From Hysterium pulicare CBS 123377 (lineage: Eukaryota > Ascomycota > Dothideomycetes > Hysteriales > Hysteriaceae): a stretch of DNA of 64,000 nucleotides. The stretch lies in the NCBI GenBank assembly GCA_000467715.1, contig AJFK01000182.1, positions 1 through 64,000 of the forward strand, written 5' to 3'. The translations under genes and the position numbers were made by a program. Shown one piece after another: positions 27,475-57,482 of the stretch. Position 1 is the first letter of the stretch. Every line of letters begins with the position of its first letter. The notes under the pieces were generated by a model. It was not told the DNA's origin. It did no database searches and was given only the letters and a program-made list of their open reading frames with translations.

Positions 27475-28120
27475 TTACGTAGGAGAGTAGGATGGCGAAG
27501 TAGGCGACCATTTCGGAGATGTTGCCGAATACGGTGCCGGACCAGGCGAAGTAGGAGAGAATCTCGGCGAGGTTGGAGAGTAGTGTTGAGCTGCGGGACT
27601 AGTGGGACTGTAGACTGGACTAGTCGGGCTGTAGCTGGGAGAAGTTGGAGACGTTGGGGAGCGTCTGTCGCTACCGCCGCCGAACTGTGGACTACTAGGA
27701 CTATACATCGGTGAAGTTGGACTATAGGCAGGTGACGTTGGGCTGTAGTGTGGCGAGGTTGCGCCTCTGGCCATCTGAGCAGGCGAAGTAGGACTATAGC
27801 TTGGAGACGTCGGCGAATAAGATGGCGAAGTCGGTGAGTAGCTTGGGGACGTCGGTGAGTAGGATGGAGATGTAGGCGACATGGATGACATAAAGGCGGG
27901 CGACGTTGGCGAATAAGTTGGCGACGTGGGAGTGTATTGCGGGCTGGTGGCAGAGAAGCCTGGAGATGTGGCGCCGAAGCGAGGACTGCTGATGCCTGGA
28001 GAAGTAGGCGAATAGCCAGGCGAGGTGGGAGAGTAGCCTGGTGACGTGGGGCTCGTGCCAAAGCCAGGGCTAGTAGGAGCATAGCCAGGGCTTCGGCCTC
28101 CATAAGGACTGAATCCGCCG
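27475..28120 (-). repeat. Heptad repeats of the RPB1 C-terminal domain
   Basis: A tandem 21-base coding repeat encoding YSPTSPx units. They are regular in the middle and degenerate at the N-terminal side (for example [18 protein letters not shown]). Confidence 0.93.
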
Positions 28121-31100
28121 TCGCCAAAGCCTCCTGGACCACCATAAACACTGAATCCTCCAGTTTCATCGCCGCCTGCAGCCGCAAGGGGAGAGAATGA
28201 GGCACCGAAGTCGTTGCCGCCCATGCCGCCCTCGTAGGTAGGAGATCCAAGGTCATAAGGCGTAGCAGCTCCATTGTCGATGTAAGTACCCGCTGCTGCA
28301 CCAACACGCATGTGGGCGTTGTCCTCGATCATGGTCAGCAACATTGCGTTGTCCATGACGAGGTCGAACTCTCCTGTTCCCATTGGTGCCAGTTGACCAA
28401 GCATAATGTTTTCAGAAACACCCTTGCAATCATCAAGCTCACCAGCACCGGCTGCGTCAAGAAGAATCTCAACAGTCTCTTCGAACGAGCATCGCATCAA
28501 AGCGCCGGTATCGGCACGGTTGATACCATGACGGGTGATTGCCATCAACATACCTCGCGCAGTCATAATGTCGACGAGAAGAGCTAAGTGGCGGTAGTTG
28601 ACATAGGAACCATCAAATGAAAGCACAGCTTTCAGTTCTCTCAACAATGCCGCTCGAGTAGCTTCAATGCCAAAAACCCCAAGAATCTCGACGAAGGAGT
28701 TTGAGTACGTGCGGTAAGGATCGACACCTTCCACAGACAGTACGTCGGCAAGCGCTGTGCCGCTGGTATCGAGAATCCATTCTTGACATCGCTCGTCAAG
28801 CCGACGCTTGATGATTGCACCGTCCGGTTGGATATGAATTTTTTCTTCGGTTCGAATAAAGGCACGTTCGACACCGCGGACACCACGTAGAGTGACTTCG
28901 TCAAGTAGATGCTTCTCGAGCTTTCTCATCCAGCGCTCATCCCTATCGTCGTCATCCTCATCGTCGGCTTCTTTGAAGACTGAATCGTGGACAAAACGGA
29001 CACGAAGAATCTGCTGATCCGCATTGTCGTCGCTAAAGATTACCGCAAGACTCGGTGCAAAATCTTCCTTGATCTTGGCAGCAACTTCAGAGATTGATAT
29101 ACTCTTGTCCAACAATTTCTTACGATCCAGGATGATACGTAACAGCCACTTGGACTGGCGATCGGTATTCTCGTTGTCCTCAGGAATAATGAAGTAAGAT
29201 TCAACCATGTCGGCGTCTTGCTCGATGACAGTGGACTGAATTTCAGGGTCATAGTAGAGCTCGCATGTCTCAGCAAGCGAGCGCAAGGTGGTGTGCTCTA
29301 TACGACTTCGCAACACCTTCGCCGTCTGTTGGCTCGCCTTCGGGTCTGTCTGACACACCGTCATTGACGGAGTTTTGATGTTCGTCGCAACGTTGAGAAT
29401 TTCTTTCAGACGAGGAACACCAAGAGTGACGTTCTTGGAAGAGATACCAGTAAAGTGGAAAGTGTTCAGAGTCATCTGAGTGGCTGGTTCACCAATTGAC
29501 TGAGCTGCAAGGACGCCGACCATCTCACCAGGAGCGACAGCGGCTCTGGCAAATCGATTCTCCAGGTCGCCTAGAACGTTCTCGAATGCAAGCTTGTTAA
29601 GGGAATATTCTGTAACAAGACGCTTGAAAGCTAGCCGTGAGCGTAAATGGCATTTGAACAGCTTGGTTGCACTATCCTGCGCCTCGATGGACAAGTGGTC
29701 GGTGCCACGGACAATGATGAGTTTGTCCAGTAACTGCTGCACTTTAGTGATCACTTCGATGGGGTGAAGATCACTTCGAGCGCCATCCTTGATTCGAAAT
29801 TTGTTCTTTGCGGCTTCGATCATTCGAACAATGTTGAGAGGGAGAGCCAGCTCTTCCTTATCATCATCGACACCGTCTCGAATGAACTCGCGGTCTTTGC
29901 GTAACTGCTCCCACTCGGCATCCAGGTAGCGCTGAACGTCGACATCGCCTTGAATCTCGGATGCGAGCTCCAGAACATCAATAGAGATAGGATGATTATT
30001 ATCCATGACATCGACGCGGAATCGTTGCTCAAACTTAGCATCTGAACAAGCGATAATATCCACAATTTGCTTTTCGATATAGACCGCATCGAGGCCGTCC
30101 TCTCCGTAAACGAACTCGACGATATCACCCAACGAGTTCCGGACCGTTCCATCGTACTTGACCATGACGTCTTCGAGAGCTTTGACAAGCCTACGCTGAA
30201 TATAACCAGTCTCGGCTGTCTTGACGGCAGTGTCAATAAGACCTTCACGACCAGCCATAGCGTGGAAGAAGAATTCAGTTGGAGTTAAGCCGCGTAAGTA
30301 TGAGTTTTCCACGAAGCCTCTAGCTTCAGGAGAATAGTCGTCTTTGGTGAAATGTGGCAAAGATCGATACTTGAATCCGAACGGAATACGCTTGCCTTCG
30401 ACGGACTGTTGACCTACGAGAGCAGTCATCTGGGAAATATTGATCGAAGAACCCTTCGAACCAGAACGCGCCATCTGGATCGCATTGTTCAGATCCTTCA
30501 GACTCTTCTCGGTGACATTACCGGCAGTGTCACGCGCTGTATTCAAGGACTTGGAGACTTTGCTCTCGAACGTCTCACGAACATTCATACCAGGCAAAGG
30601 CTCAAGTTCATTCCGTGTAGCGGCAAGGGTGGTCTCTTCGACCTCGTCTTTTTGCGTAACGATGGCATCCTGGATCTTTTTAGAAGTGGCTGGATCGGGA
30701 ATTGTATCACCAATTCCAATGCTGAAACCGTAGTGTAAGAGCCAATAGTTGACAACTCGCTGTGCACCATTGAAGAATGCAACAGCACTTTGCCAGCCAT
30801 ACTCGTTGAAAAGTATGTGGATGACACCTCCGCCGCTGGCGCCGACGATCTTTTTACTGAGCAAGCCAAACATCAGCTCACCTCCGGAGATTAAGAGACC
30901 ATCGTCGTTCAATGGGCATTTGTTTCCGCTTTCCAAACGAGCAAGATTGAGACCGGACGGCAACACCATGCTGATGATCTGCTTGCCAGTCCATCTGGGG
31001 CGCGGCTTGATGATGGCTGGTTGTGGAATAACTCCATCCCACTCTGGTACCCACATCATTATGTTCATGACTTGCTGCTTTGTCATGAAGACGTCACGAC

Positions 31101-32909
31101 GACAGAGCTTGTAGATACCGCAAAGCGTGTCTTGCACAATACCCATGAGAGGACTGTTTCGTTGCGGTGAGACAATATTGAGAGGAACCATACACAGGTT
31201 CATAATCTCAGCTCGAGTCTCGTCGCTCTGGGGTACGTGCAAGTTCATTTCATCGCCATCGAAATCAGCGTTGTACGGAGATGTGACTGACAAGTTGAGG
31301 CGAAATGTCGAATATGGCATGACCTTAACGCGATGTCCCATCATGGATTCCTTATGCAAAGATGGCTGTCGATTGAAGATGATGACATCGTTGTCTGAGA
31401 TGTGTCGCTCAACCTTCCAGCCATATTGAAGTCGCAGTTCGTCGAGACGTTTGTTGTGCTTCAAGTCTATTCTTGAACCATCGTTCTTAATCACATAGTT
31501 TGCGCCAGGATGCTGATTCGGTCCGTTTCTTACTAGGGTAGTAAGGTGACTAATATTGAACTTGGTGACCACTTCGGGGTATGTCAAAGTCCGAGCAATG
31601 CTTCGCGGAACACCTACTTCGTCGAGTGAGAGGTTTGGATCACCAGTGATAACCGTACGAGCGGAGAAGTCCACACGCTTTCCCATCAAATTGCCTCGTA
31701 GACGACCCTCCTTGCCTTTTAAACGGCCACGAATCGTTTTCAGCGGTCGACCGGATTTTTGGAGTGCTTGAGGAATACCAGCGGTATCATTGTCCATGTA
31801 CGTTGCAATATGATACTGCAACAAAGTCTCAAACTCATTCATGATATGCTGTGGGGAACCGTCCCGAATGCATTCTTGAACTCGACCGTTGGCGCGGATG
31901 ATGTCTCCCAATTTGTACGTCAGATCATCCTCACCGCGCATACCTTGACCGGTGCCATCAACGGATATACTGGGGCGAACAGGAGGTGGAGGGACGGGGA
32001 GGACGCTAATAACCATCCATTCGGGTCGAGCGTAGTCCTTGTTCAAGCCTAGCAAGTGGAGTGTGTTATCGGAAAGGTTTCGAAAGATGTTGAGCGCATC
32101 TTGGGGAGAGATCACTCTCTTGTCGTCACCCTTGTTATCGTCGTCATCCTTCTTGTTTACCTTGTGTGTCGCATAAAGCTTGAGACCTTCCTTCCGGATA
32201 GTGTCAGGTTGTTTATTGCCACAACCACCGTGAGGGACCTTCGAGGAGCTCTTCTTTTCATCGTCAGGAACCTCAACTTCGCAGACCCGTTTAGTCTTAG
32301 AGACCCGCCAGACGGCATCGAAGCGCTTCTTGGGATCCTTGATTCGAATAGCTGCTTTCCAGTCTGGGTGGTTCTAAAGGTGGCATTAGCATCATCGAGG
32401 CATATGATATGCATGGTCTCCCTATAAAGGTAGACTCACGTAATCCGCCAAAATCAACCCGCAATTGTGACACACTGACTCCAAGAGCTTCTTGATCTTG
32501 GTGATGTAACCTGCGACACGAGTAAGCTTGTGTTGCATGATTTGCCTTCAGAAACTGTACTGACCGACATGAAAGACGGGCACTGCCAGTTCAATATGCC
32601 CGAAATGACCAGGGCAGGTATTGATGTCTTCTTTGCAAGTCGCACAGGTATACATGCGATCTATAGTGCCGAGTTTGGGATCATTCAGACCTTGCTCGCG
32701 GGGTCTCTGCTTTTGCTCGTCCTGAGAGAAATCAGTACCGCTTGCTCGGTTTTACTTTATCAGTAAAGATAACTAACCATCGTCTCCGGGTATATTATGT
32801 GCACAACACTCATTGCCTTGATCTCCTCAGGCGAAAGGAGACCGAACTGGATCTCCTTTATGGTGCGCAAAGGGCACTTGGAGGGTATCTGGGTTCCTGG
32901 AGCGGCCAT
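27475..32909 (-). CDS. RPB1: RNA polymerase II largest subunit Rpb1
   Basis: Four exons (32909-32778, 32721-32565, 32510-32440, 32373-27475) give about 1752 residues. The start is [20 protein letters not shown]. The zinc-binding clamp head includes [10 protein letters not shown] and CHNCG. The catalytic magnesium loop is [14 protein letters not shown]. The bridge-helix and trigger-loop region is [16 protein letters not shown]. The protein ends in a C-terminal domain of roughly thirty degenerate heptads of the form YSPTSPS. Rpb1 is the catalytic core of mRNA transcription and its tail couples transcription to processing. The last codons are followed directly by the stop TAA, which lies inside a GTAAGT donor-like sequence, so the precise C-terminus may depend on splicing. 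The gene is divergent from the Swd1 gene. Confidence 0.97.
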
Positions 32910-44108: not shown

Positions 44109-46753
44109 TCAAGATCCATTGACGATCCTACCATTACGCATGGTTCTTCTCACTAACTGATGTTGCGGAACCAAGCAGTGAATACCTTGCTCAAGGCAGG
44201 ACTGGCAGATATCGAAATTGCCACTGTAGCACGCGTTGCAATGGTAATGAACTTCAGTTGTTCTTGTACCACATTCATCGCAACATACCGACATATACCA
44301 ATCCCGACTGGCGTGGGCTTCTAGAAACTCGGTTAGGCCTGGTGGACGCTCTCCCTGGTAAGGAAAGGCCTCAGCTAATTTTCGCGCGGACGGTCTGGCC
44401 CTGGGATCTCGAGAGCGGCACTGTTCTATGATATCGTTGAAATATGAAGGTATGTCTTTGCCGCAGCTTGGTAGTTCTACGGGGTTTGCATGTTCGGCAT
44501 TGCACCTATAACGGGGAACATTTGTGCATGCTGATTTTGCACACAAGTAGCCATGGGGGCAATGCTTGTGCTCGGCGAGTAGCCACAGGATATACCCCAG
44601 CTGGAAGATGTCCGTTCGAAAGTTCATTCTATTGCGTGGAGTTTCGTTATCATGTTTGGAGATGTTTCGTAATTCAGGAGGCATGCGGCCGTATTCATCT
44701 TGCATATGTTTGTGAGATGTATTGAGGTAATGCAACACTGTCGTTCCATCTGTTGTGTTGATTCCAATTGAATATAGCCGAAGGACGCCCACAACCAATC
44801 CTCTTCTGTGGACCTCCGAGATCGTCTTAATGATTTGCTTCCCCCAGCTCTCCCTGATCGGCCATGGAATAAGTTCGTTTTCCTTATTGACAGCAGCAAA
44901 AAGGGATGCCATAGAAGTAATCATTGGGGCCTCGTACAAATAACTTTTGAGGTGTAGACTTGCATCGTCGAAGACGACGCCGATAAATCGAGCAATGCCA
45001 TCGCAGCCACGCAAGGAGCAGAGTAGTTTTAGATCGTTGCAAAAGTCTTTGTATCCATTTTCGACTTCCATTCCGGCACTTGCAAATGGTACTTTCTGCT
45101 CGATACACGGTCGCCCCTTGACCCAAGTCCTAAAGCGAGAAGAAGTGATTCGCGATTTAATGATAACCTCTCGCTCCAAGAACTGTGCACAGCCCAGATC
45201 CTCAATGTCTTGTAAGATCTGATCCTCATTGGTCATTCTTTTTTCCAATCCATCTTCTACTGCCACTATCCTGGATGAGTCCGTAATGATTTGACCGTAC
45301 TCATCTTCTTTCAAGCACATAGAGAGGTTGGTGACCGAGTCCGAAAGCCTCAGATCAGGAAGCACTGTTCTCACTAGACTCTGGAGTGCATCTGGCAGTA
45401 CTTTGCAACTATTGTCTATGTTGTCAGGAGCCAAAATTTGAGAGAGAGGTGATTTCTCCTGAATATCTGTGAAAGTAGCGGATAAAATAATTCGTCGCCA
45501 CCGTCGGGGAGTTTCTGCATAGAGGAGAAAGTATTTTTGCGAATGGTAATCTTCGTTCGATTGCATCATAGCACATGTAAATACTGGGTCCGCGAATAGT
45601 CCTTCAGTCGAGTATTGCTCCGGATAAAATGAAGGGGTGGATTCAAAATGGTAATTTGGTGCGCCAGAAAAGCTCGCACGAAGCGTCTCCATAGATGAAG
45701 CAGAGCAGTCGGTGGAGAATCTAGAGACACAATCCAAGAATATATCGACAGTCAAAGAGTTACGATCCTCGGACGTATTACTTTCCGAAAGCTGATCTGT
45801 AAATTCCCCGGAAACATGACTGTCATGTCGTGATAATATGGACATTCGATCGAGTTTTTGCTCATTTGAAAGCTCGGCTGCCAGTCTGAGCTGCTGTATT
45901 TGCAAACGATGTTGAGCCAAGTCTCGGTAAATCTGAGCAAGGTGTTGGTGGAGTGACCGATCTTCTGGCATGAACGCGTGTTTTGTCTCGTGCACCAAAG
46001 ATGTTACGGCGTTCGACATTTGATCTCTCTGCCTGAAATGAGGCTGTCTGTCGCCAGCCATCCGTTCTGGCACTGAAAGCTCCTGCGATGTCCGAGTTGA
46101 GTCTTGTCGTTCAGACTCCGCACAAATAGATTCCTCAACGAAGCGACGAATGGCAAAGCTGGCCTCCGCAGGCCCACTGAAACATCTTACAGATTGGGCA
46201 GCCTCAGCTTTACCCATAGCTAACAAGCGTACGGTACACAATCTTGTCGCCGTCAGTATTGCCCATAGGACAGAGAGTAGGCGGGTATGTCATACGTGGT
46301 GATAGAATTCAACGCGGTAACAAGAGTAGACTTCGCAGCCTCAAGTCGTAGCTGTAAGTGTTTGACCTCGCCCTTAGTGAATAGCCCCCACTTCATATTT
46401 ATGGAACTCATTCGAAAATCTTTTCCGTTGGAATCAGGCTTCAGGCGTTTCCGTATTTTAGCCATAAGCCTCTCCAGCACTGCTTGACAATTTTCTAGTG
46501 GAATCCTCAAGTTTCTGATCATCCCGACCATCACCTCATCTCCACAGATGACACCTCTGATCGCCTCCTCTTTTAGTGCGGCGTTCAAGGAAGAGACAAT
46601 AGAATAGAAAGCATGCACATCCCTGGAGACAGATCTGATCTCCTCAGGACCTCGTCGTATACCATCCACAAGATTGAATAACGCCTTTGAGGACTGGATG
46701 GCTGTAGTCGCAATGCCTACAATACCTGCCATAATGCTAAGCGGGTCCGCCAT
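44109..46753 (-). CDS. Fungal STAND N-terminal domain / pseudokinase / ZZ zinc-finger protein
   Basis: Two exons (46753-46296 and 46242-44109) give about 863 residues. Residues 1-150 form a fungal_N helical domain (MADPLSIMAGIVGIATTAIQ). A long variable middle follows. Then comes a kinase-fold region at about 540-790 (DLKLLCSLRGCDGIARFIGV, WGKQIIKTISEVHRRGLVVG, RTDIFQLGYILWLLAEHKHC, RDPRARPSARKLAEAF). The catalytic loop reads VVGVLRLYSIGIN and no DFG is present, so it should be a pseudokinase. The C-terminus is a ZZ-type zinc finger (CCDECGTRTTEVHYHCNACY, then DICQSCLEQGIHC). The start domain is typical of fungal NLR-like proteins. The whole suggests a signalling adaptor or sensor; this role is inference. 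Confidence 0.8.
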
Positions 46754-47732
46754 GAGGTGATCGTGCTAAAGCAGCCTCTCAGATCAGATCTTGCCAAGGC
46801 GAAATATGAATCTTGAAAATAGTCGGAAACTAATGAGTAAACACAATAGTTGTCTTGCTCGCTAGACCTCTTATTGAAATTAGTGGCCCAAGCAACGAAG
46901 AGATCGACGAGACCTGGAAACATGTCGCATTTGTAATACCGGGAAGAGGGTGTCAGACCCCTGGGAGATCTCCTTATTGCTATGCACAAGGCAAAAATGT
47001 TTTCAAACGGCAATGAACTCGTCAACAAGGCTGAAATTAGCCTCTGCAGCTTCCAGTGTGTCCCATAGTCAAATGGATTGACGAACCACGCTCTCTTTCA
47101 AACAAATCGTCGATGTATTGTAAGAAACCTGCCCCCAACCAATCAGGAGAATGACAAGGAATTGGAATTGATTGATTGTTGGCAGCTTCAGCACCGAACC
47201 CGTGGCCTTGGTACCAAGAAGGGGTCCAATTCGGGAGAGAGTTCGAGAATCCCAGTACATCGCCACGTAAGGCATCGATGTGAGAGGTGAATCATGCATA
47301 ACTTGCAGCAGTCCGAATTGTAGGGATGTATGAAGAGGTTAGAAGGGTGAGAACCGTCGTTATCGAGGACATGAGCGCAAGCCAATGATGTGGCTGATCT
47401 AACCGCTTTCTGCACTTGGCCCCCACAAGCATCTCCAACGTACGTTACATGTAGGTGTACATGCAGGTGTATCATTAACCCTCTTGTATACAGAACCTAC
47501 ACAGGCTTTATGTACCTAATCATTTTCGATATGGGCTTGATAATGGCAACTAGCTTTGATGACTTTTACCAAGCCCAAATAGGCTCTATAAAGTCCCAGC
47601 ACCGGAGTTGATAGGAGCAGACAGAGTCAGCTATTATTATTTTCCGCTTCATTACTGTAGGTAGGTAGGCTAAGGCCACAAAAAATACGATTATACGTGC
47701 ACGGCAATATGAGAGTAACTTACCCGCACCCG
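46754..47732. other. Intergenic region, nothing supported
   Basis: About 980 bases. Several frames of 70-100 codons on both strands lack domains and start or splice evidence. Confidence 0.4.
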
Positions 47733-48329
47733 CTATTCGACTAAAGTCATGAGCTCCTCACTTCTAATTACGGTACCTCTCTTCGCAAAGAACTTCATCA
47801 AAAATTCGTGCGTCTCCTCATTTGGATCCGCACAAGAATCCTCGACCACGAAGAGCCGATAATCCAGATCCGACGCCTGCACCACCGTCGCCGCCACAGC
47901 ACCGCCAGTGGAAACACCTCCAATAAGCAATGTATCGATTCCGCGTTCCTTGAAGATGGCATGGACATCTTGCGGCGCATTGAAGAACGGGCCCACTCTA
48001 TGTTTCCTGACGACGATGTCGCCGTCCTCGGGCGTCACAGCAGGGTGGAATGCGGCCTCTGACGAGTCTACATTGAACTTGGCTGCACGAGAGGGGTCGT
48101 GCTTTAGTTGAGAGAAAGTCGGGTTCGTGTCTGGCACAGTTCCAACCTCGGAGTTGGTGAAGGCGAGGCGGCAGTGGGCGATGGTGATGCCTTTACTTCT
48201 GGCTGCCTTGACGACGGAGGCCGTGTGCGTCATGAGTGCATCGAATTTTGGGTCCATTTTTGCGTATGTGACCTGGAGGTCGAGGAGGAATAGTGCGGTA
48301 CGTGACGGTACAATTTTGTTGGCTGCCAT
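47733..48329 (-). CDS. Isochorismatase-like hydrolase lacking the usual catalytic cysteine
   Basis: A single-exon gene of 198 residues. It starts MAANKIVPSRTALFLLDLQV, where the Asp of the family triad is in LLDLQ. The Lys is probably in VVRKHRVGPFF. The nucleophile region reads LIGGVSTGGAVAATV, where the family normally has Cys after the TxG segment. Here that position is Ala. Some fungal members of the isochorismatase-like superfamily also lack the cysteine, so the protein may have another activity or none. Length and fold pattern are normal. It is divergent from a Zn2Cys6 regulator and shares its 450-base promoter. Confidence 0.85.
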   Translation of the reverse strand: MAANKIVPSRTALFLLDLQVTYAKMDPKFDALMTHTASVVKAARSKGITIAHCRLAFTNSEVGTVPDTNPTFSQLKHDPSRAAKFNVDSSEAAFHPAVTPEDGDIVVRKHRVGPFFNAPQDVHAIFKERGIDTLLIGGVSTGGAVAATVVQASDLDYRLFVVEDSCADPNEETHEFLMKFFAKRGTVIRSEELMTLVE

Positions 48330-48782
48330 ATTTGTGGTAGGACTGAGCTGAAGACCTGCCAGGAGAAATTGAGAAGAAGATCGTTTGAAGCTTTATGATA
48401 ACTGCGATAAATGATTAAAACGATAGCGAATGCTGAAATAAAACTGTTCAACCATCTTTTTGATGTCTCTGCTCTGCTCCGGAACCGGTGTCTACTGACC
48501 GGGACCGGTCAGCATCCGCTGCTGGTCGACACAGTTGCCGAGTGGCTAGATGCCTGCGAATGTCCCCACATGTCACTCCTGCAATTCCAGTCCGCCGATT
48601 TGGTGGCTGCATATCCAAGAGTTAGGAGAAGATTTCATCAGGGGGGTTCGTGGACTTGTCGCGACACCCAGCCTTCCTCAACTGATGGTTGGTCCGTGCT
48701 TTGCGACACCTCTTTTCCCTCCTCCGGTCAAAACGACTTCAGATCGGGCTTCCATCGTCCAACTCGGAATCATGCTGCTAGA
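48330..48782. promoter_or_regulatory. Divergent promoter of the isochorismatase-like and Zn2Cys6 genes
   Basis: About 450 bases between divergent starts, carrying the two CCGG-N2-CCGG elements described separately. No other gene is seen. Confidence 0.6.
48479..48511. promoter_or_regulatory. Two CCGG-N2-CCGG elements, probable Zn2Cys6 binding sites
   Basis: CCGGAACCGG lies at 48479-48488. TGACCGGGACCGGTCA lies at 48496-48511; its TGACCGG and CCGGTCA arms are perfect inverted repeats around a GA spacer. Each contains a CGG-N2-CCG inverted pair, the kind of site Zn2Cys6 dimers bind. They lie about 300 bases upstream of the regulator's own start and 150 bases from the hydrolase start. Confidence 0.6.
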
Positions 48783-50995
48783 ATGGAGGATCCTCAGCCC
48801 CAGCAGACCCCACCCGCATCAGTCCGAAAGAACACAGCATGCGCAGAATGTAGACAACAAAAGGTCTGACGGACAGCTTCCGGTCTTTCGACGCCACCAA
48901 CTCCATGTAAACTAAACTTGCTGGAATAGATGCGATGCGAAGGCGATCCAAGCACCTCGGATCCGCCAGCTTGCTTGCGCTGCTGCCGGTTGAAGATTCC
49001 ATGCGTCTTTTCGGCGCCGTTCAAGAGGACGCATAAGCGGAAGTATGCCTGTCATTATTGAACCGCTCCTGTCTCTGTCATAGAGCTAATTGTCCGTGTT
49101 GTATAGACGGTTACAGGAACTTGAGGAAGAGACTACTGCTTTAAAACGCCAGCTATTGTCTGCTTCTCCAGCAGCACCTGGCAATGCTCTACCTAGTGGA
49201 GATGCTCTGCCTCCACGTCAGGAAGATAATATCGATGTCTCACGGATTCCTACGGCCGGGATAATACGCCGTCATGAACCCTCCGCTGATAATGATCCGA
49301 CCTTGTCGAGGAGTATCGGCGGAGTGGAGCTCGCCCCTGGCATTATTGATGATTGCGTTGAACTGTAAGTCTTCCTCGCTTCTCGATGGACTAGCAGTTG
49401 ATGCCACACAGATACTTCAAAGACTATCATTCCATGCTCCCAATTCTCGACCCTAGCGTAACCCCAAACACGTTCTACCAACATGCTCCATTTCTGTTCT
49501 GGGTTGTCGTCTCCATCGGATCGCGAAGATACACCCGACAACCTACCCTGACTCAAGCCTTAGCTCTACCAGTGACTCAACTTGCTTTGCAGTCGTTAAT
49601 CGTCCGAGCCAAACCGATCGAGCGCATGAAGGGACTGATACTTCTTCTCAATTGGCCATTTCCTTCCGGCCCCTTTTACCGTGACCCATCTTTTCTTCTT
49701 GCCGGTACTCTGCTTCATATGGCGATGCAATGTGGTCTGCATGCACCTACTTTTAGTCAGGACTTTTCAAAGTCATACCTCAAATTACCTGAACAGGAGC
49801 CCCTACGGAGAGCAGAGATGTGGGCATATGTTGTCATCATATACCAGAGGTATACCATCCTGAACTTAACCCCACATCTACCCTTGCTAAGCGTATTCAT
49901 CAGGACATGCTCTGGTAGTGGGCAAGCAAACTTAGTATCATTCGAGACCTATAACGAGCAAATACACCTCAAAGCATTACTGGAGAAGCTACCGGTTACT
50001 TTAAGAATACAAATTCAAATCAGCAACATCATCGCTCGCGCTCATAAAACCTTACTAGATCTCGGGATTCTCTCAATGACTCCGCAGCAGGAACGTACAA
50101 TGGACGCTCTTTTGAAAGGATTCAACACAGAGTTGGACAGCTTGGAGAATCTTGCGTCATCGGGTAGAGACCAAGTACAAGATGCAATTCCATATGCTAA
50201 CTTTTGCTCAGGTTGGGACCACCTCTACATAGCCTCTGCACGTCAAGATCTTGCCGCAATGCACTTTTACAAGTCCGCAGCAACTCTAGACATGCAATCC
50301 TCCATGCTGATTTTCAACGCCACATCAAGTGTCCTGGAACAAATTCGCGACCTTGACAGAGACTACAGCCTACACCGTATATGCACCCGGTCCCTTCTAA
50401 CAGTCACAATAATAAGCTTGGCCAGCATGGCTCGCATCCTCAAAGGTCCATTCGCAGGATATCTGGACCAAATTCGGGGGTACAATCTCTTTGACGCTGG
50501 CGTCCGTTTCGCACGGTCTTGTTCCGTCCAGAAAGCAGACTATGGAGAGAGAGGAGCTGCGTTTGCGGAGCAGGTCTGGAAGAGCAAAAAAGTGTTTCGC
50601 GATCCTGATGGATCAATCAATATTACTCTCCGTGTGAGGAACCGATTTTCGGGTGGTCCATTACATGATGTTATTCGATGCTGGAAGGAGGAATTCTTTG
50701 ATCTCGAGTACATGCATTCTGCGCCTGGCATGGATATTGGTACGCTCTTTACAGTACTTTTGTGCTTTCTGGCCAGCATGTATCGGCTAACGGTGGAGTA
50801 GAAACCGTTATACCCTCGAGTACGACTGCTGGACTCGATGCTGCGCTTGCTCCGAGTTCGGTTCCCAATGGCGGTCCGTCTAATTTCTCCACAGCACCGG
50901 ACTTTTTGTTGAACGATGAGCTTTGGGGAGATTTGGGTCTAGGAATGAGTGACAATTGGGATATGGCTGGGTCGGGTATGAGTTGGACGGCTTGA
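48783..50995 (+). CDS. Zn2Cys6 transcription factor, probable cluster regulator
   Basis: Proposed exons are 48783-48863, 48930-49042, 49107-49364, 49412-50707 and 50755-50995 (about 662 residues). The binuclear cluster is built across intron 1: NTACAECRQQK joined to MRCEGDPSTSD, then PACLRCCRLKIPCVFS, giving six cysteines. A short coil follows (RLQELEEETTALKRQLL). The middle-homology part includes YFKDYHSMLPILDPSVTPNT and SFLLAGTLLHMAMQCGLHAP, usual for fungal-specific regulators. The C-terminal exon is rich in Gly/Ser/Trp (NDELWGDLGLGMSDNWDMAG), like an activation tail. The last intron is the least certain; without it the frame stops at 50801. CCGG-type repeats in its own promoter suggest autoregulation. 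Confidence 0.82.
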
Positions 50996-51148
50996 GTGGT
51001 ACAGGTAATTCTTCAACCATTCCCTTTGTTCTGACTCTATTCCAATATCAATAGTGACTCTAAGATTGGCATTCCCGCCCATTAGTTAGCTACATTGCGT
51101 CTATAGACCCATGGAACCCCTTCAATTCCTCGTCGTTACTCATTCCAA

Positions 51149-52911
51149 CTAAGACTTCTGTTCTTCTTCTTGTGCCTTTTTCTTCTCTTCTCTCTGCCGC
51201 CTCTCCTCCCTCCAACCCATCCCCCATTTGTACTCTACCCAAAGCAAAGATATCGCAACAAGGTAAACCAACCCCAAGAAAGTATAACACCATCCCCACC
51301 CCATACCTTCAAGCATGGAGGCAATTGCCGCCGTCCCCGCGCCCGCAACCCAGCACCGCACCAAACTACTCGCCGCAGACACAGTCGACGGCTTCTCTGG
51401 GAACAAATCTACCAGCAATGAACTCAAAGCATTACTGGAAGACACTTGGCAGTACGCCATTATGAACTCCAGTATCAGCGGCACGGCGAGGTTGACGCGA
51501 TACTGCAACACCCATCCGAAAGGGATATAGGTTGCTACAACGAGCGGTGCGAAAATGAAGACGGGCTGCAAGCGCACTTTTTCGATGGGGAAGTTGCGTA
51601 GGTCGGTCCTACGTTTCTTTTCGAGCGGGAAGTTGAGTCTTTTTGCCCAGCGGCGGTAGTTCCAGTCCATCAGCTTACCGTTGAGTATGGCAGCGAAGAT
51701 CGCGGCGCCGCCGACGGGTCTGAGGAGATAAAAATCAGTCGAAAGCTTCAGGCGGACGCTGATTATAATGCTTACATGTAGCAGAGGCCGACTTTGAAGG
51801 TGCCGAAACCGTACACTTCGCCGAAAAGGGTGGGCAAACTTGCAAGTTGGGCCATCAGAACAAACATGCCCAACGCAATGTAGCAGATGATGAGGCAGGC
51901 ATCCTTTTCGCGCAGTATCACGACCGAAGTCAGCGGGTTCGGAAACTGGAATTTGCGCTTCTTCGCCAGTTCCTGTGCCTTGTCCTCCTTCTCGTCGATT
52001 TCGCTACCCCGTCCTTCACGAATCGCCCTCTTCTTCTCCCGCCGCGCGCTCCAGTACTGAAACGGACTCATCACCCACCAATCCGACGGCGGAATACTCC
52101 CATTCCCGACTACCTTCCTCGACGTCTCTGGCATGAAGAGCGCATACACGACCAAGTAACCCCCACTGATGATAGCCAGGAACCAGAAAATCGACCTCCA
52201 CCCTAGATACTGCGCCAACAAGCCTCCAATCGTCGGCCCAATGGCGGGCGCGAGCATGATGCCTGCGGCAGCTGGGCCAAGATACTTCCCGCGCTCCGCG
52301 GGCGTCGCGACGTCAGCCATCACACCGTACCCCAGCGCGATAGTCCCGCTGCTGCCTGCGCTCTGGAGGCAGCGCAAGACCAGCAGTGCGGCATAAGATT
52401 TCTGCGTCGCGAGCCCGATATTGGCGGCGAAGTAGATGGCGAATGTGAGGATGTATGCGGGCCGGCGACCAGTCGTGTCGCCGAAAGTGCCCATGATGGT
52501 GGGTGCTAGGCCTTGGAGGATCATGTATGTTGTTATTGTCAAGTTGATGCGCCCCGTGGTGGTGTGATAATCCTTTGCGATGTCCGGGATGGCGGGGAAG
52601 TAGATCTGGCCGCTGAGCGGGGAGAAGAATGAGGCGAGGCTGATCATTATTACTATGAAGATACGTTGGGGGCGGGTGAAGACTGTGTGTAGTGGTGCAG
52701 ATGGGGCCTTTGTGAGGCCTTCGGGGTCGTCCGGGGTGGTGGTATTAGGACTGTCATTGGTTGTCGTAGTGTGAACTTCCAGATCTGTAGGTTCTTGGTG
52801 GTTGTTTTGCAAGTTCGTGGGTTCTAGTCCAGATCTAATGCTTGATGTGTGGAATTTGTGACCATCTACCGGAGCGGTGATGCTTTCGCCTTTTGTCTTT
52901 TCTAAATCCAT
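51149..52911 (-). CDS. MFS drug:H+ antiporter-type transporter (DHA1-like)
   Basis: Two exons (52911-51776 and 51719-51149) give about 568 residues. After a polar 75-residue N-terminus come twelve predicted membrane segments. MFS motif A reads GTFGDTTGRRPAYILTF and antiporter motif C reads IMLAPAIGPTIGGLLAQYLG. The central loop is charged (about 60 residues). The fold and motifs match the 12-spanner DHA1 group that exports drugs and small metabolites and includes the yeast Qdr and Aqr proteins. The substrate is unknown. The gene is convergent with the Zn2Cys6 regulator and divergent from the reductase. Its promoter has CCGG-N2-CCGG elements like those upstream of the regulator. Confidence 0.9.
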
Positions 52912-53652
52912 AGTGGTGACGGTGGTGGAATATATGAACGTCGATCCCTGAAGACTGATATTCCTCGCTCTTCTGGGGTGAATAGATTGAAAGCAATCAA
53001 CTACGGTAGACGTGCCGAATGAAGTTCATGAGAGTTTTATATAGGATATTCTTCTGAGATACTGTGCAAATCTTAAAGAAAAATCCGAACTCTAGAAGTG
53101 ATGTCGTTCGTGATTTGCATCTCTGTGATTAGTCCACCGGCTCGAAACCGGCACCGGAGCCGGCTTGTTAAGGCGATTGACTTCAGATTGCAGCCAAAAA
53201 CCGGGCAGTTCCCATTGATCAGCGGTGTGTGTGTGCCGTGTCTCTGCACTTGCTACTCTTTCAATCAACCTCTATGGATTGTAAAAGCACTTAAAATGGC
53301 CTAATTCTTTAAACCAGCCGCAGGACTCCAACCTTCTGTTTACCTCAGACTTACTAGTCTAAAGGTCCCTATCTTCTTCTTAGGAGGATTGCTTGCCTAT
53401 GGCTGCATTTAGCAGGGTGATATCGCGGAGCAGTGTATGCAGGATGCGTGGGAGAACGGCATCAACATTGGAGGTCAGAGACTACACAACCTCGATGTTA
53501 CCCTATTTGGAATAGCGTAAATGACTCATTATGAGCCCAATCGAACTACACTACACTACGTAGCTATCTCATACACGACAACAAATGTATAAAAAAGAAC
53601 TTCGCTACATTGTTATCCCCATACACAAACTGCAACAACTTCCTTCTAAGCC
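52912..53652. promoter_or_regulatory. Divergent promoter of the MFS transporter and PRISE-type reductase
   Basis: About 740 bases between divergent starts. It contains a cluster of four CCGG words at 53137-53163. No gene is seen. Confidence 0.55.
53137..53163. promoter_or_regulatory. CCGG cluster with two overlapping CCGG-N2-CCGG elements
   Basis: Four CCGG words occur at 53137, 53148, 53154 and 53160. The last three form CCGGCACCGG (53148-53157) and CCGGAGCCGG (53154-53163). The outer arms CCGGCTC and GAGCCGG are also inverted repeats. The same CCGG-N2-CCGG spacing occurs twice in the regulator promoter, 4.6 kb away. Confidence 0.55.
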
Positions 53653-54938
53653 ATGTCTCCATCCAAATCCACAAACCAAGCTCTCATCTTCGGTGCCTCA
53701 GGCCTGGCAGGCTGGGCCGTCGTCGACCAACTCCTAAAATCCTACCCCTCTCCAAACACCTTCTCAAAAGTAACAGCGTTGGTGAATAGACCCCTTGATC
53801 TATCCTCATCCTACTGGCCCAAGCCCTCGGAATCAGGTCCAGAATTGCAGCTAGTATCTGGGATCGATCTGACCAGGGGCACGGAAGCGGAGTTTGCGGA
53901 GAAGTTGAGGGAGAAGGTAGAGGGGATTGAGGGTGTGACGGACGTGTTTTATTTTGGTAGGTCAAGGTACTAGGGAGTTTTAAGGGAAAGAGTTATTTAC
54001 AGAAAGCGCTAGCATATAAACAAGAAGACGATCCACCGACTGAAGTAAAACTAAACACCGATATGCTCACACGCGCAATTGGCGCTTTGAATATCCTTTG
54101 CCCAAACCTATCCTTCGTTGTATGGCCTAGCGGATCAAAGGTAACCAATATCCATTTTCCCTCTTCTTAAGACCGCCAGTCTTTATGATTAACCTTCTAT
54201 CCCAAGGCCTACGGTATCCAGCTCCCCGAAAAGCCGTTCAAAGCCCCATTCAAAGAGTCTTTACCTGCTCTTCCAGAGATCCATGCTACTACCTGGTATC
54301 CCGCCTTCCGCGAGGTTCTCAATCGCGCCAGTGCCGGTCGGAAGTGGACTTGGGCTGAAGTAAGGCCCGATGCCATTATTGGCTTTGCGCCTAGCGGGAG
54401 CACGTTTAATTTAACGGCGCACTGGGCTTTATACCTCTCGCTATACGCAAAAATTGAGGGGAAGGGGTCATTAGTCCCGTACCCGGGTTCAAAGAATGGA
54501 TATAACTCCTTATTTAATGAGGCATCCTCAAGTATGATTGCGAAGCTAGCAATCTGGGCATCGCTCCATCCGGAGAAGTGCACAGGTGAAGCCTTCAACA
54601 TCGCAGACCGAGAGAAAGCGGAGACTATGGCGGAGCGGTGGCCAATCTTGGCGGCTTATTTCGGCTTGAAAGGTGTCGAGCCAAGCGAGGATCCTACTAT
54701 CTTGTCGCCGGGAGCATACGTGAAGAAGCATGCTCATGTGCTGGAAGAGCTAGGCATCAAAGGAAGTCAGGTGTGGAAAGCGGAATTCTTGGATACGTAT
54801 GGTTTCTATCTCGATTTTGACCGACAGTTTAGTTTGAAGAAGACGAGAAGCGTGGGGTTCAAAGAGGAGAAGGAGCCTAACGAGAGCTGGTTTGAGGCGT
54901 TCAAAAGGTTTAAGGATGCGGGGATGATACCTAGTTGA
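53653..54938 (+). CDS. PRISE-type NAD(P)H-dependent reductase (SDR superfamily)
   Basis: Three exons (53653-53956, 54013-54140, 54207-54938) give about 387 residues. The dinucleotide-binding start is ALIFGASGLAGWAVVDQLLK. Later blocks are FVVWPSGSK joined to AYGIQLPEKPFKAP, then EVRPDAIIGFAPSGSTFNLT and AFNIADREKAETMAERWPIL. This pattern belongs to the progesterone 5-beta-reductase/iridoid synthase-like (PRISE) family. These proteins reduce activated double bonds such as enones; fungal copies often sit in secondary-metabolite or detoxification gene groups. The catalytic Tyr/Lys pair could not be assigned with certainty. It is divergent from the MFS gene, which suggests that the two are co-regulated. 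Confidence 0.86.
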
Positions 54939-55330: not shown

Positions 55331-57202
55331 TTGAGATTTGTCGCCTTTGTCTTGGTCGAGTCAACCAAATGTTTGACGGGCCGTATTCAGAAAAAGATCA
55401 ACAAGCCGAATGTTTTTATGGGGTTGTTATTGGCATCCTAGGTATTATTCTTGTCCATTTCCAAATGTTTTTCGAGGAAATCTGCAAGCCCGCAATCTGG
55501 ACCATAATAGCTATTGAGAGTCCTAATCAAGCACTGGATGACTTCGTGGGCGAACGGATCCAGTTGACGTTCGTTATGTGCGTGAGATCGAGGCCACTTC
55601 AATGACTCTCCAAGACGCCGTCGCTGATATGGATCCAGTTTAAGATTCCCATTGAAAGGCAGAAGGCGATACAGCCATCCCCGAGTCTTAAGTCCTTGAG
55701 CGGTGATTGTGGTAGTTTCGAAGCGACAATGATCTATGAAGGAGAGCTTATATTCGAATCCGGGCGGGTTGAATTTAAATTTGAACCTTGATAAGTTTTC
55801 CGCAAAGTGAGCTTCATTATTTCCTCAGGACTACTCTCGAGATTGTTCCGCAAAATCTCTCCACTTAGCAAGCACAGAGCAAGAATACAAGTACTCAGCC
55901 CATACTTCTCAGCGATAGAAGTGGGGAAGATGTCGCCGTATCCAGTCGGCTTGAAAACCTTGCAGAGTTTCCAGTAATGGCAATGCGGTCAGCCTCTTTC
56001 TCGATTGATCGACTGCAAACATCCTCTATTATACTAAGTGTGCTAGGATATTGCGTTATCCGGGCATAGTCCTCTTTAGTGTTGAGAGTGCGCGCTCCGG
56101 TTCGACCATACATATACCCTTGCCAATGACGAGGACCATTAACTATGTTAGGGTCTCGGAGACCGTTGTCATTGTGAAGAACCATCTTGTTCCAGATGAT
56201 GTATTGCTTGATCTTACCCAAGACGTAAGTGACTGGCCAGCGATAGAATTCACCATAAGCTAGGCAAAACATCGTCGTTGCCTGTCGAAAATGTGCTAGT
56301 TGGACTTCAAGCTCATTGGAGACATCTCCAAAGTTATGACTGTTTCCTTTGCGCAGATACTTGCTGTTGGGGGTGAGAAGAACCGTTTTCGATGACGCGC
56401 AATAATCTTCTTGAAATATCCAAGCGCGTGCCCATCTTTCGTCTGATAGAATCCGGAGGATCAAGAGCACTAGCTCAAGGTCGTTAACCCCATCTTTGAA
56501 TACAGGCTTTTCCTCGTCGTCTTTGTAGGTGAAAATTTCCCGAGACAGGAGAGACGAAAGCTGATCGATCTCGAATTGATTCTCGAGAGTGATGGTAAGC
56601 AAGCCAAGAGCACAAGAACTTGCTTCACAACGTCCATGATCTGGACTCCCAGCTTCACATCGTTTTCGTAGAGAGTTTGGTCGCCGGGAAGTTGATAAAT
56701 ACTCTCTTTGTTGATTCATTGTAACTCCACGATTTTGGGCGAATCGAATGCACCTTTCCATGTAACTGTCCGGAAACTCACTCTTATGCCGGAGTTTTCC
56801 AGGTCTTTGAGCGTAGTAATCGAAGGAAGTTGCCATACTGCCATCAGCTGTTGGAGTCCCCTGGGCCCATCTCCAAGAGACAGCAATATATGATCCCTCT
56901 TCATTGTCGTCATGTTCATCCGTCACGGGAAGGGTGAAAATCGGCAAAGGCTCTTCCTCTACTGAATCCCTCGTTGGTGTGAGTCTTCTCCGTTTGGTAG
57001 GACGCCATGAGTTGACCTCCCCATCCAGATCTGGAACACTCGATACGTCGAGAAATCGAAGATTCTGGACCCATTTCTCCGAGTTCTCACGCCGAATCTG
57101 GTATTCCTGAATTTCCAGCAACTGCTGCAAGAATGCTGAAGCGTCGTTGTTGTGTATCTTCCCAAAAGTGAGATCCAAATCGTATTTTATTCTGCCTCGC
57201 AC
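55330..57202 (-). pseudogene. Decayed heterokaryon-incompatibility (HET) domain gene
   Basis: The minus-strand frame from 57202 carries recognisable HET blocks: GSYIAVSWRWAQG, LGLLTITLENQFEIDQLSSL and DERWARAWIFQEDYC, with DRIAITGN further on. HET proteins mediate vegetative incompatibility in filamentous fungi. The domain core looks damaged: a conserved stretch expected in the middle is missing or out of register. Sequence related to the family's C-terminal part continues below 55895 outside the main frame. I judge it broken, with several disturbances. The upper end may also lack an upstream exon. Limits are approximate. HET genes are often variable or lost between strains, so an intact allele elsewhere would not be surprising. 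Confidence 0.65.
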
Positions 57203-57482
57203 GCAAAAAGTAGGAAGTTATAGATGGTATGAGGTTCCATCGTTCTGCTGTGCGTGAGAATGAATTGTGGTTTCACGTGCGCATGAATCATGTTTAGGGG
57301 GGCTTGTTCCCGATGCGGAAAGGCTGGCCGATCTTGATGCGGAGTGCCAACAACAAGTAATTCCTATCTTCATCTTCATCCTCGATTAGCAGTCCATTGA
57401 GTCCGTGTGGCTAGGAAGCGCAATAACACTTGTGCAATTGCTACCCTGTGGGGCTTTCGTGAACAATTGTCGCAAGGATGTT

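Follow-up and report, generated by a model that had tools for sequence, protein, structure and literature searches.

A probable four-gene fungal unit with Leu3-type promoter sites and a putative local regulator of the Leu3/LeuB family

Four adjoining genes, coding for a Zn2Cys6 regulator, an isochorismatase-fold hydrolase, an MFS transporter and a PRISE-family reductase, probably form a small, locally controlled unit of known parts. Judged from the sequence, the unit would be under the control of the local regulator, a member of the Leu3/LeuB family, and this reading is held with a confidence of roughly 70%. Both divergent promoters of the unit carry paired Leu3-type sites, and the regulator gene next to them encodes a matching class of DNA-binding domain (DBD). 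That the regulator and the sites at a single locus are of matching class speaks for local control with autoregulation. A literature search on the four-gene unit returned no description, which does not prove its absence from print; PMC11537073, to judge from its excerpt on isochorismatase, Zn2Cys6 and PRISE, does not describe the unit.

Organisation of the locus

The window, i.e., the whole stretch of DNA analysed, comprises bases 1-64000 of contig C147 (64,000 nucleotides) in a genome of 37.2 Mb and 596 contigs. Genes with introns, together with a Zn2Cys6 regulator, identify the DNA as fungal. The hydrolase gene (47733..48329, minus strand) has one exon and encodes 198 amino acids (PF00857, E 8e-31). 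It is separated from the regulator gene by 453 bp, termed promoter A, of which 449 bp were used in the tests. The regulator gene (48783..50995, plus strand) is a predicted gene model in which six exons (48783-48863, 48930-49042, 49107-49364, 49412-49849, 49904-50739, and 50802-50995) are joined across GT...AG introns to give a product of 639 amino acids. The MFS transporter (51149..52911, minus strand; 568 amino acids; PF07690, E 1.5e-50) is modelled with the exons 52911-51776 and 51719-51149. Promoter B, with a length of 741 bp, lies between the transporter gene and the reductase gene (53653..54938, plus strand), a model with the exons 53653-53956, 54007-54140, and 54207-54938 and a product of 389 amino acids (PF22917, E 1e-50 with the last exon). 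The original prediction had placed all four genes between the two promoters, which is accurate for the regulator and transporter genes alone, whereas the hydrolase and reductase genes flank the promoters on their far sides.

Family profiles were also run against ten further open frames of the window, of which the nearest gave no sign of additional unit members. A PigL_N-type domain at 46256-46765 adjoins a 726-codon frame on the same strand (44112-46289) without a Pfam family, and the open frame at 55898-57217 is without a family match. On the minus strand, an uninterrupted frame of 1632 codons extends over 27475-32373.

Promoter sites and their class

The window has four copies of the word CCGGNNCCGG, two per divergent promoter, and the 20 kb of contig that follow it have none. 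Promoter A contains site 1 (CCGGAACCGG, 48479..48488) and, 20 bp from it, site 2 (48499-48508), which is part of the inverted repeat TGACCGGGACCGGTCA (48496..48511). In promoter B, sites 3 (53148-53157) and 4 (53154-53163) overlap and have their middle CCGG in common, forming one three-box element (CCGGCACCGGAGCCGG, 53148..53163). A lone extra CCGG is located at 53137-53140, seven bases ahead of this element. Two CCGG-N2-CCGG elements in each of two divergent promoters 4.6 kb apart, one of them held by a 16-base inverted repeat, had been described before; the repeat and all four elements were recovered, the latter as the sole four in the 64-kb window, with the start of the second corrected from 48498 to 48499.

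CCGGNNCCGG corresponds to the Leu3/LeuB consensus and is to be read as an everted CCG-N4-CGG repeat instead of a CGG-N2-CCG pair. The original prediction had named the latter as a Zn2Cys6-type site; the pair is literally present, but its class was misread, as the published reading is the everted CCG-N4-CGG. The excerpt of PMC2930855 gives GCCGGNNCCGGC as the consensus of yeast Leu3 and states that the linker specifies the everted site, and the title of a Leu3-DNA structure paper, as cited in PMC5559640, goes with this reading. For LeuB of A. fumigatus, the excerpt of PMC6221358 reports binding of CCGN4CGG in gel shifts (EMSA) and SPR, loss of binding upon mutation of one CCG, and control of genes beyond leucine synthesis. 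A CCGN5CGG target is also known for A. nidulans LeuB, according to the excerpt of PMC8262921. The four everted CCG-N4-CGG sites in the two promoters, two of which share a box, all have a G-NN-C middle, compared with 425 of the 6833 CCG-N4-CGG places genome-wide, or about 1/16.

The CGG boxes could in principle be read by another Zn2Cys6 protein, either as an inverted CGG-N2-CCG or as a direct CGG-N3-CGG repeat, each of which is found twice in each promoter. Such a reader is highly improbable, as the outer C and G required for the everted reading are present in 4/4 sites and the adjacent regulator is Leu3-like. In addition, CGG-N2-CCG is common in the window, with 16 copies against 10 expected and 4 of 100 shuffles reaching 16, and the inward pair was rejected as the main reading on account of this abundance.

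Clustering of the sites

Shuffled windows contained a mean of 0.44 CCGGNNCCGG sites, and none of 100 reached four. Genome-wide, the word was counted at 425 places in 37.2 Mb, compared with 468 for a reversed control pattern. Since the word is not enriched, a single copy carries little information; what stands out is the clustering of sites, which is locally far above chance. The genome-wide count and enrichment check suggested with the original prediction had a divided outcome, without enrichment of the word itself and with the two promoters far above the genome rate (0.014 sites expected, or 0.0136 in the 1190 bp tested across both promoters). When each promoter was subjected to 20,000 dinucleotide shuffles, one site appeared in 73 and 49 of them, and two sites in none. 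Among CCGG-CCGG spacings of 0 to 15, N2 alone occurs twice in both promoters, while the other spacings present occur once each (10 in promoter A; 7, 8, and 13 in promoter B). Apart from the sites, the promoters have six 9-mers in common, none of which is convincing.

Pairs of complete, non-overlapping sites within 30 bp are found at 2 places in the 37.2 Mb, one being this locus and the other a CCGGCT repeat on C39, and the reversed control pattern also yields 2 such places. The overlapping three-box form has 12 matches at 11 places genome-wide, and the control has 12. Because the reversed control is equally dense, neither dense element would stand out by itself. What carries the argument is the presence of both, 4.6 kb from each other and next to the gene for a Leu3-type regulator; from 12 distinct dense places in the 37.2 Mb, we estimate that about 0.018 pairs would fall within 5 kb of each other.

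Among the ten three-box places besides the window, those on C54 and C150 were inspected with their surroundings, and both were rejected as a second copy of the module. C54:38245 has the identical three-box 16-mer, but within an open frame of 471 codons, the start of which we take to resemble tyrosyl-DNA phosphodiesterase. At C150:61153, the element falls within open frames of 157, 117, and 64 codons and is possibly coding sequence. The contrast with these two places is not clean, because sites 1 and 2 are also located within an open frame, which has 152 codons, begins at 48411 and runs into exon 1 of the regulator. Its upstream part, 48411-48782, is a 124-codon extension in frame with the first exon. 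An N-terminal extension of the regulator across the sites is disfavoured by codon use, with a score of 0.014 compared with at least 0.029 in the regulator segments, although this test is weak because non-coding segments of promoter B reach 0.077. The start context of the extension is poorer, the extension would leave 81 bp as the promoter shared with the hydrolase gene, and a profile search of it found no family above cut-off (Smr, E 0.19). We regard this open frame as due to chance, with reserve. Because its length is similar to that of a frame covering one of the rejected sites, confidence in local control was lowered slightly and the chance reading was given a little more weight.

A chance clustering of CpG-rich words without a regulatory role would be in line with the unenriched word, with the dense places formed by the reversed control pattern, and with the open frame spanning sites 1 and 2. 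It is nevertheless rated as very unlikely, given the 0.018 dense pairs expected within 5 kb and the position of the sites in promoters together with a regulator of the matching class.

The regulator and its relatives in the genome

By sequence comparison, the DBD of the regulator is a Leu3-like Zn2Cys6 domain. The best PDB sequence match of its zinc cluster and linker is Leu3 (2er8, E 4e-9); further matches are 2erg (2e-8), PPR1 (2e-4), LAC9 (0.05), and GAL4 (0.99). The linker FKRTHKR is aligned to FRRTYKR of Leu3. For the rest of the protein, no relative was detected by the PDB sequence search, and profile matches comprise Zn_clus and, below cut-off in the middle region, Fungal_trans. The earlier proposal of shared sites read by an autoregulated local regulator is strengthened by this Leu3-like DBD in combination with Leu3/LeuB-type sites.

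In a search of the unspliced genome with the yeast Leu3 DBD, a gene on C451 ranked first (2.4e-5) and the window gene was the lowest of the 15 matches (E 0.11), because its DBD is split and the second exon alone was matched. When spliced DBDs were compared with Leu3, C420 scored 44.8 bits, the window regulator 43.2, C451 31.1, PPR1 21.8, and GAL4 14.7. The own best match of the window regulator DBD is C451 (45.9 bits). Its identity is 36% to Leu3, 33% to PPR1, 32% to GAL4, and 42% to C67, and plain identity separates the classes poorly.

Leu3-like relatives of the regulator were found on C420, C451, C425, and C37. The DBD is interrupted directly after CRQ(Q/R)K in four of the five genes, namely the window gene, C420, C37, and C425, and not in C451. 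The interruption takes the form of stops in the window gene and C420, of a frame change in C37, and of an extra open stretch in C425, the splice sites of the paralogues being putative. In 16 stretches of about 10 kb near the four paralogues and four more distant matches, one strict site was detected, at C425:87091. This site (position 8092 of L021) has the form CCGGAACCGG and lies about 7 kb from the Leu3-like gene, inside an open frame of 149 codons.

The gene at C420 (134995-135831) is the candidate for LeuB proper. The main rival explanation is that the genome's own LeuB uses the sites, which would tie the four genes to leucine or alpha-isopropylmalate status instead of a local inducer, with the neighbouring regulator acting elsewhere or sharing the sites. 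The DBD of C420 is slightly closer to yeast Leu3 than that of the local regulator (44.8 vs 43.2 bits), and A. fumigatus LeuB both binds the same core and acts beyond leucine synthesis, as stated in the excerpt of PMC6221358. Opposed to this are the Leu3-type regulator adjoining the sites and the upstream regions of leucine genes. LEU1-like and LEU4-like genes were identified by TIGR00170 and TIGR00970, both over cut-off, and upstream of them the looser CCG-N4-CGG sites CCGAGACCGG and CCGATATCGG are present, with about 0.55 loose sites expected by chance according to our estimate. Strict sites were absent from 1.5 kb upstream of the matched regions, a weak argument as it concerns two genes. This rival reading is considered unlikely, with cross-control by LeuB being possible.

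Hydrolase, transporter and reductase

Isochorismatase-superfamily cysteine amidohydrolases employ a nucleophilic Cys that acts with Asp and Lys. The hydrolase of the unit keeps D17 and K109 and has Ala144 where related amidohydrolases have Cys, leaving the Cys, Asp and Lys pattern incomplete. In the four PDB alignments shown, the equivalent position is occupied twice by Cys and twice by Ser. Owing to Ala144, cysteine-dependent amidase chemistry appears unlikely from the sequence. Isochorismatases without the Cys exist. A relative at C488 (L046) retains the Cys in the same motif, TTDACV.

The best NCBIfam model for the transporter is Bcr/CflA drug efflux, which remains below its cut-off; the designation as an exporter is a family-level guess.

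PRISE enzymes reduce activated double bonds and use Lys and Tyr as catalytic residues. PDB matches of the reductase are progesterone 5-beta-reductase (E 2e-17) and iridoid synthase (E 1e-14). In both alignments shown, the Lys of SGSKAY and the Tyr of TTWYPAF align with the Lys and Tyr of these enzymes. The match to PF22917 and the conserved Lys/Tyr assign the predicted protein to the PRISE family.

Four relatives of the hydrolase and two of the reductase were matched elsewhere in the genome, and no strict sites were found near them in the four loci inspected of these six matches. From its gene content, the unit is plausible as a detoxification or metabolite module.

Proposed regulation and comparison with known systems

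Under local control, a dimer of the regulator would occupy the Leu3-type sites and drive both sides of each divergent promoter, its own gene included. A small molecule may switch the regulator, as alpha-isopropylmalate does with Leu3. More speculatively, the transporter, the enone-type reductase and the Cys-less hydrolase might handle one small compound that is made or met by the fungus. A more specific and rather tentative proposal is that a duplicated Leu3/LeuB-family regulator kept the Leu3 DNA alphabet, in the form of strict G-NN-C sites, changed its ligand, and now serves a private non-leucine module that is possibly cross-read by LeuB. If this were true, one site alphabet would serve leucine status as well as a local inducer. 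The regulator-site pair is directly testable, and the unit offers a handle for finding the compound dealt with, as well as a case in which to ask how cross-talk is prevented between related regulators that use one DNA alphabet.

The unit resembles Leu3 and UAS-LEU of Saccharomyces cerevisiae in the zinc cluster, the linker (36% DBD identity) and the site CCGGNNCCGG, as far as described in the excerpt of PMC2930855, and differs in that the genes adjoining the regulator are non-leucine genes. With the Aspergillus LeuB regulon, it shares the CCG-N4-CGG core and targets beyond leucine synthesis; in the excerpts of PMC6221358 and PMC8262921, LeuB is wide-acting, whereas the window regulator sits inside a four-gene unit with strict G-NN-C sites. 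A similar arrangement, with a pathway-specific Zn2Cys6 regulator encoded in a fungal gene cluster and with shared promoter sites, is represented by TerR of the terrein cluster (PMC4360782). In contrast to TerR-type clusters, the four genes described here come without a polyketide or peptide synthase, and the DBD of their regulator is of the Leu3 type.
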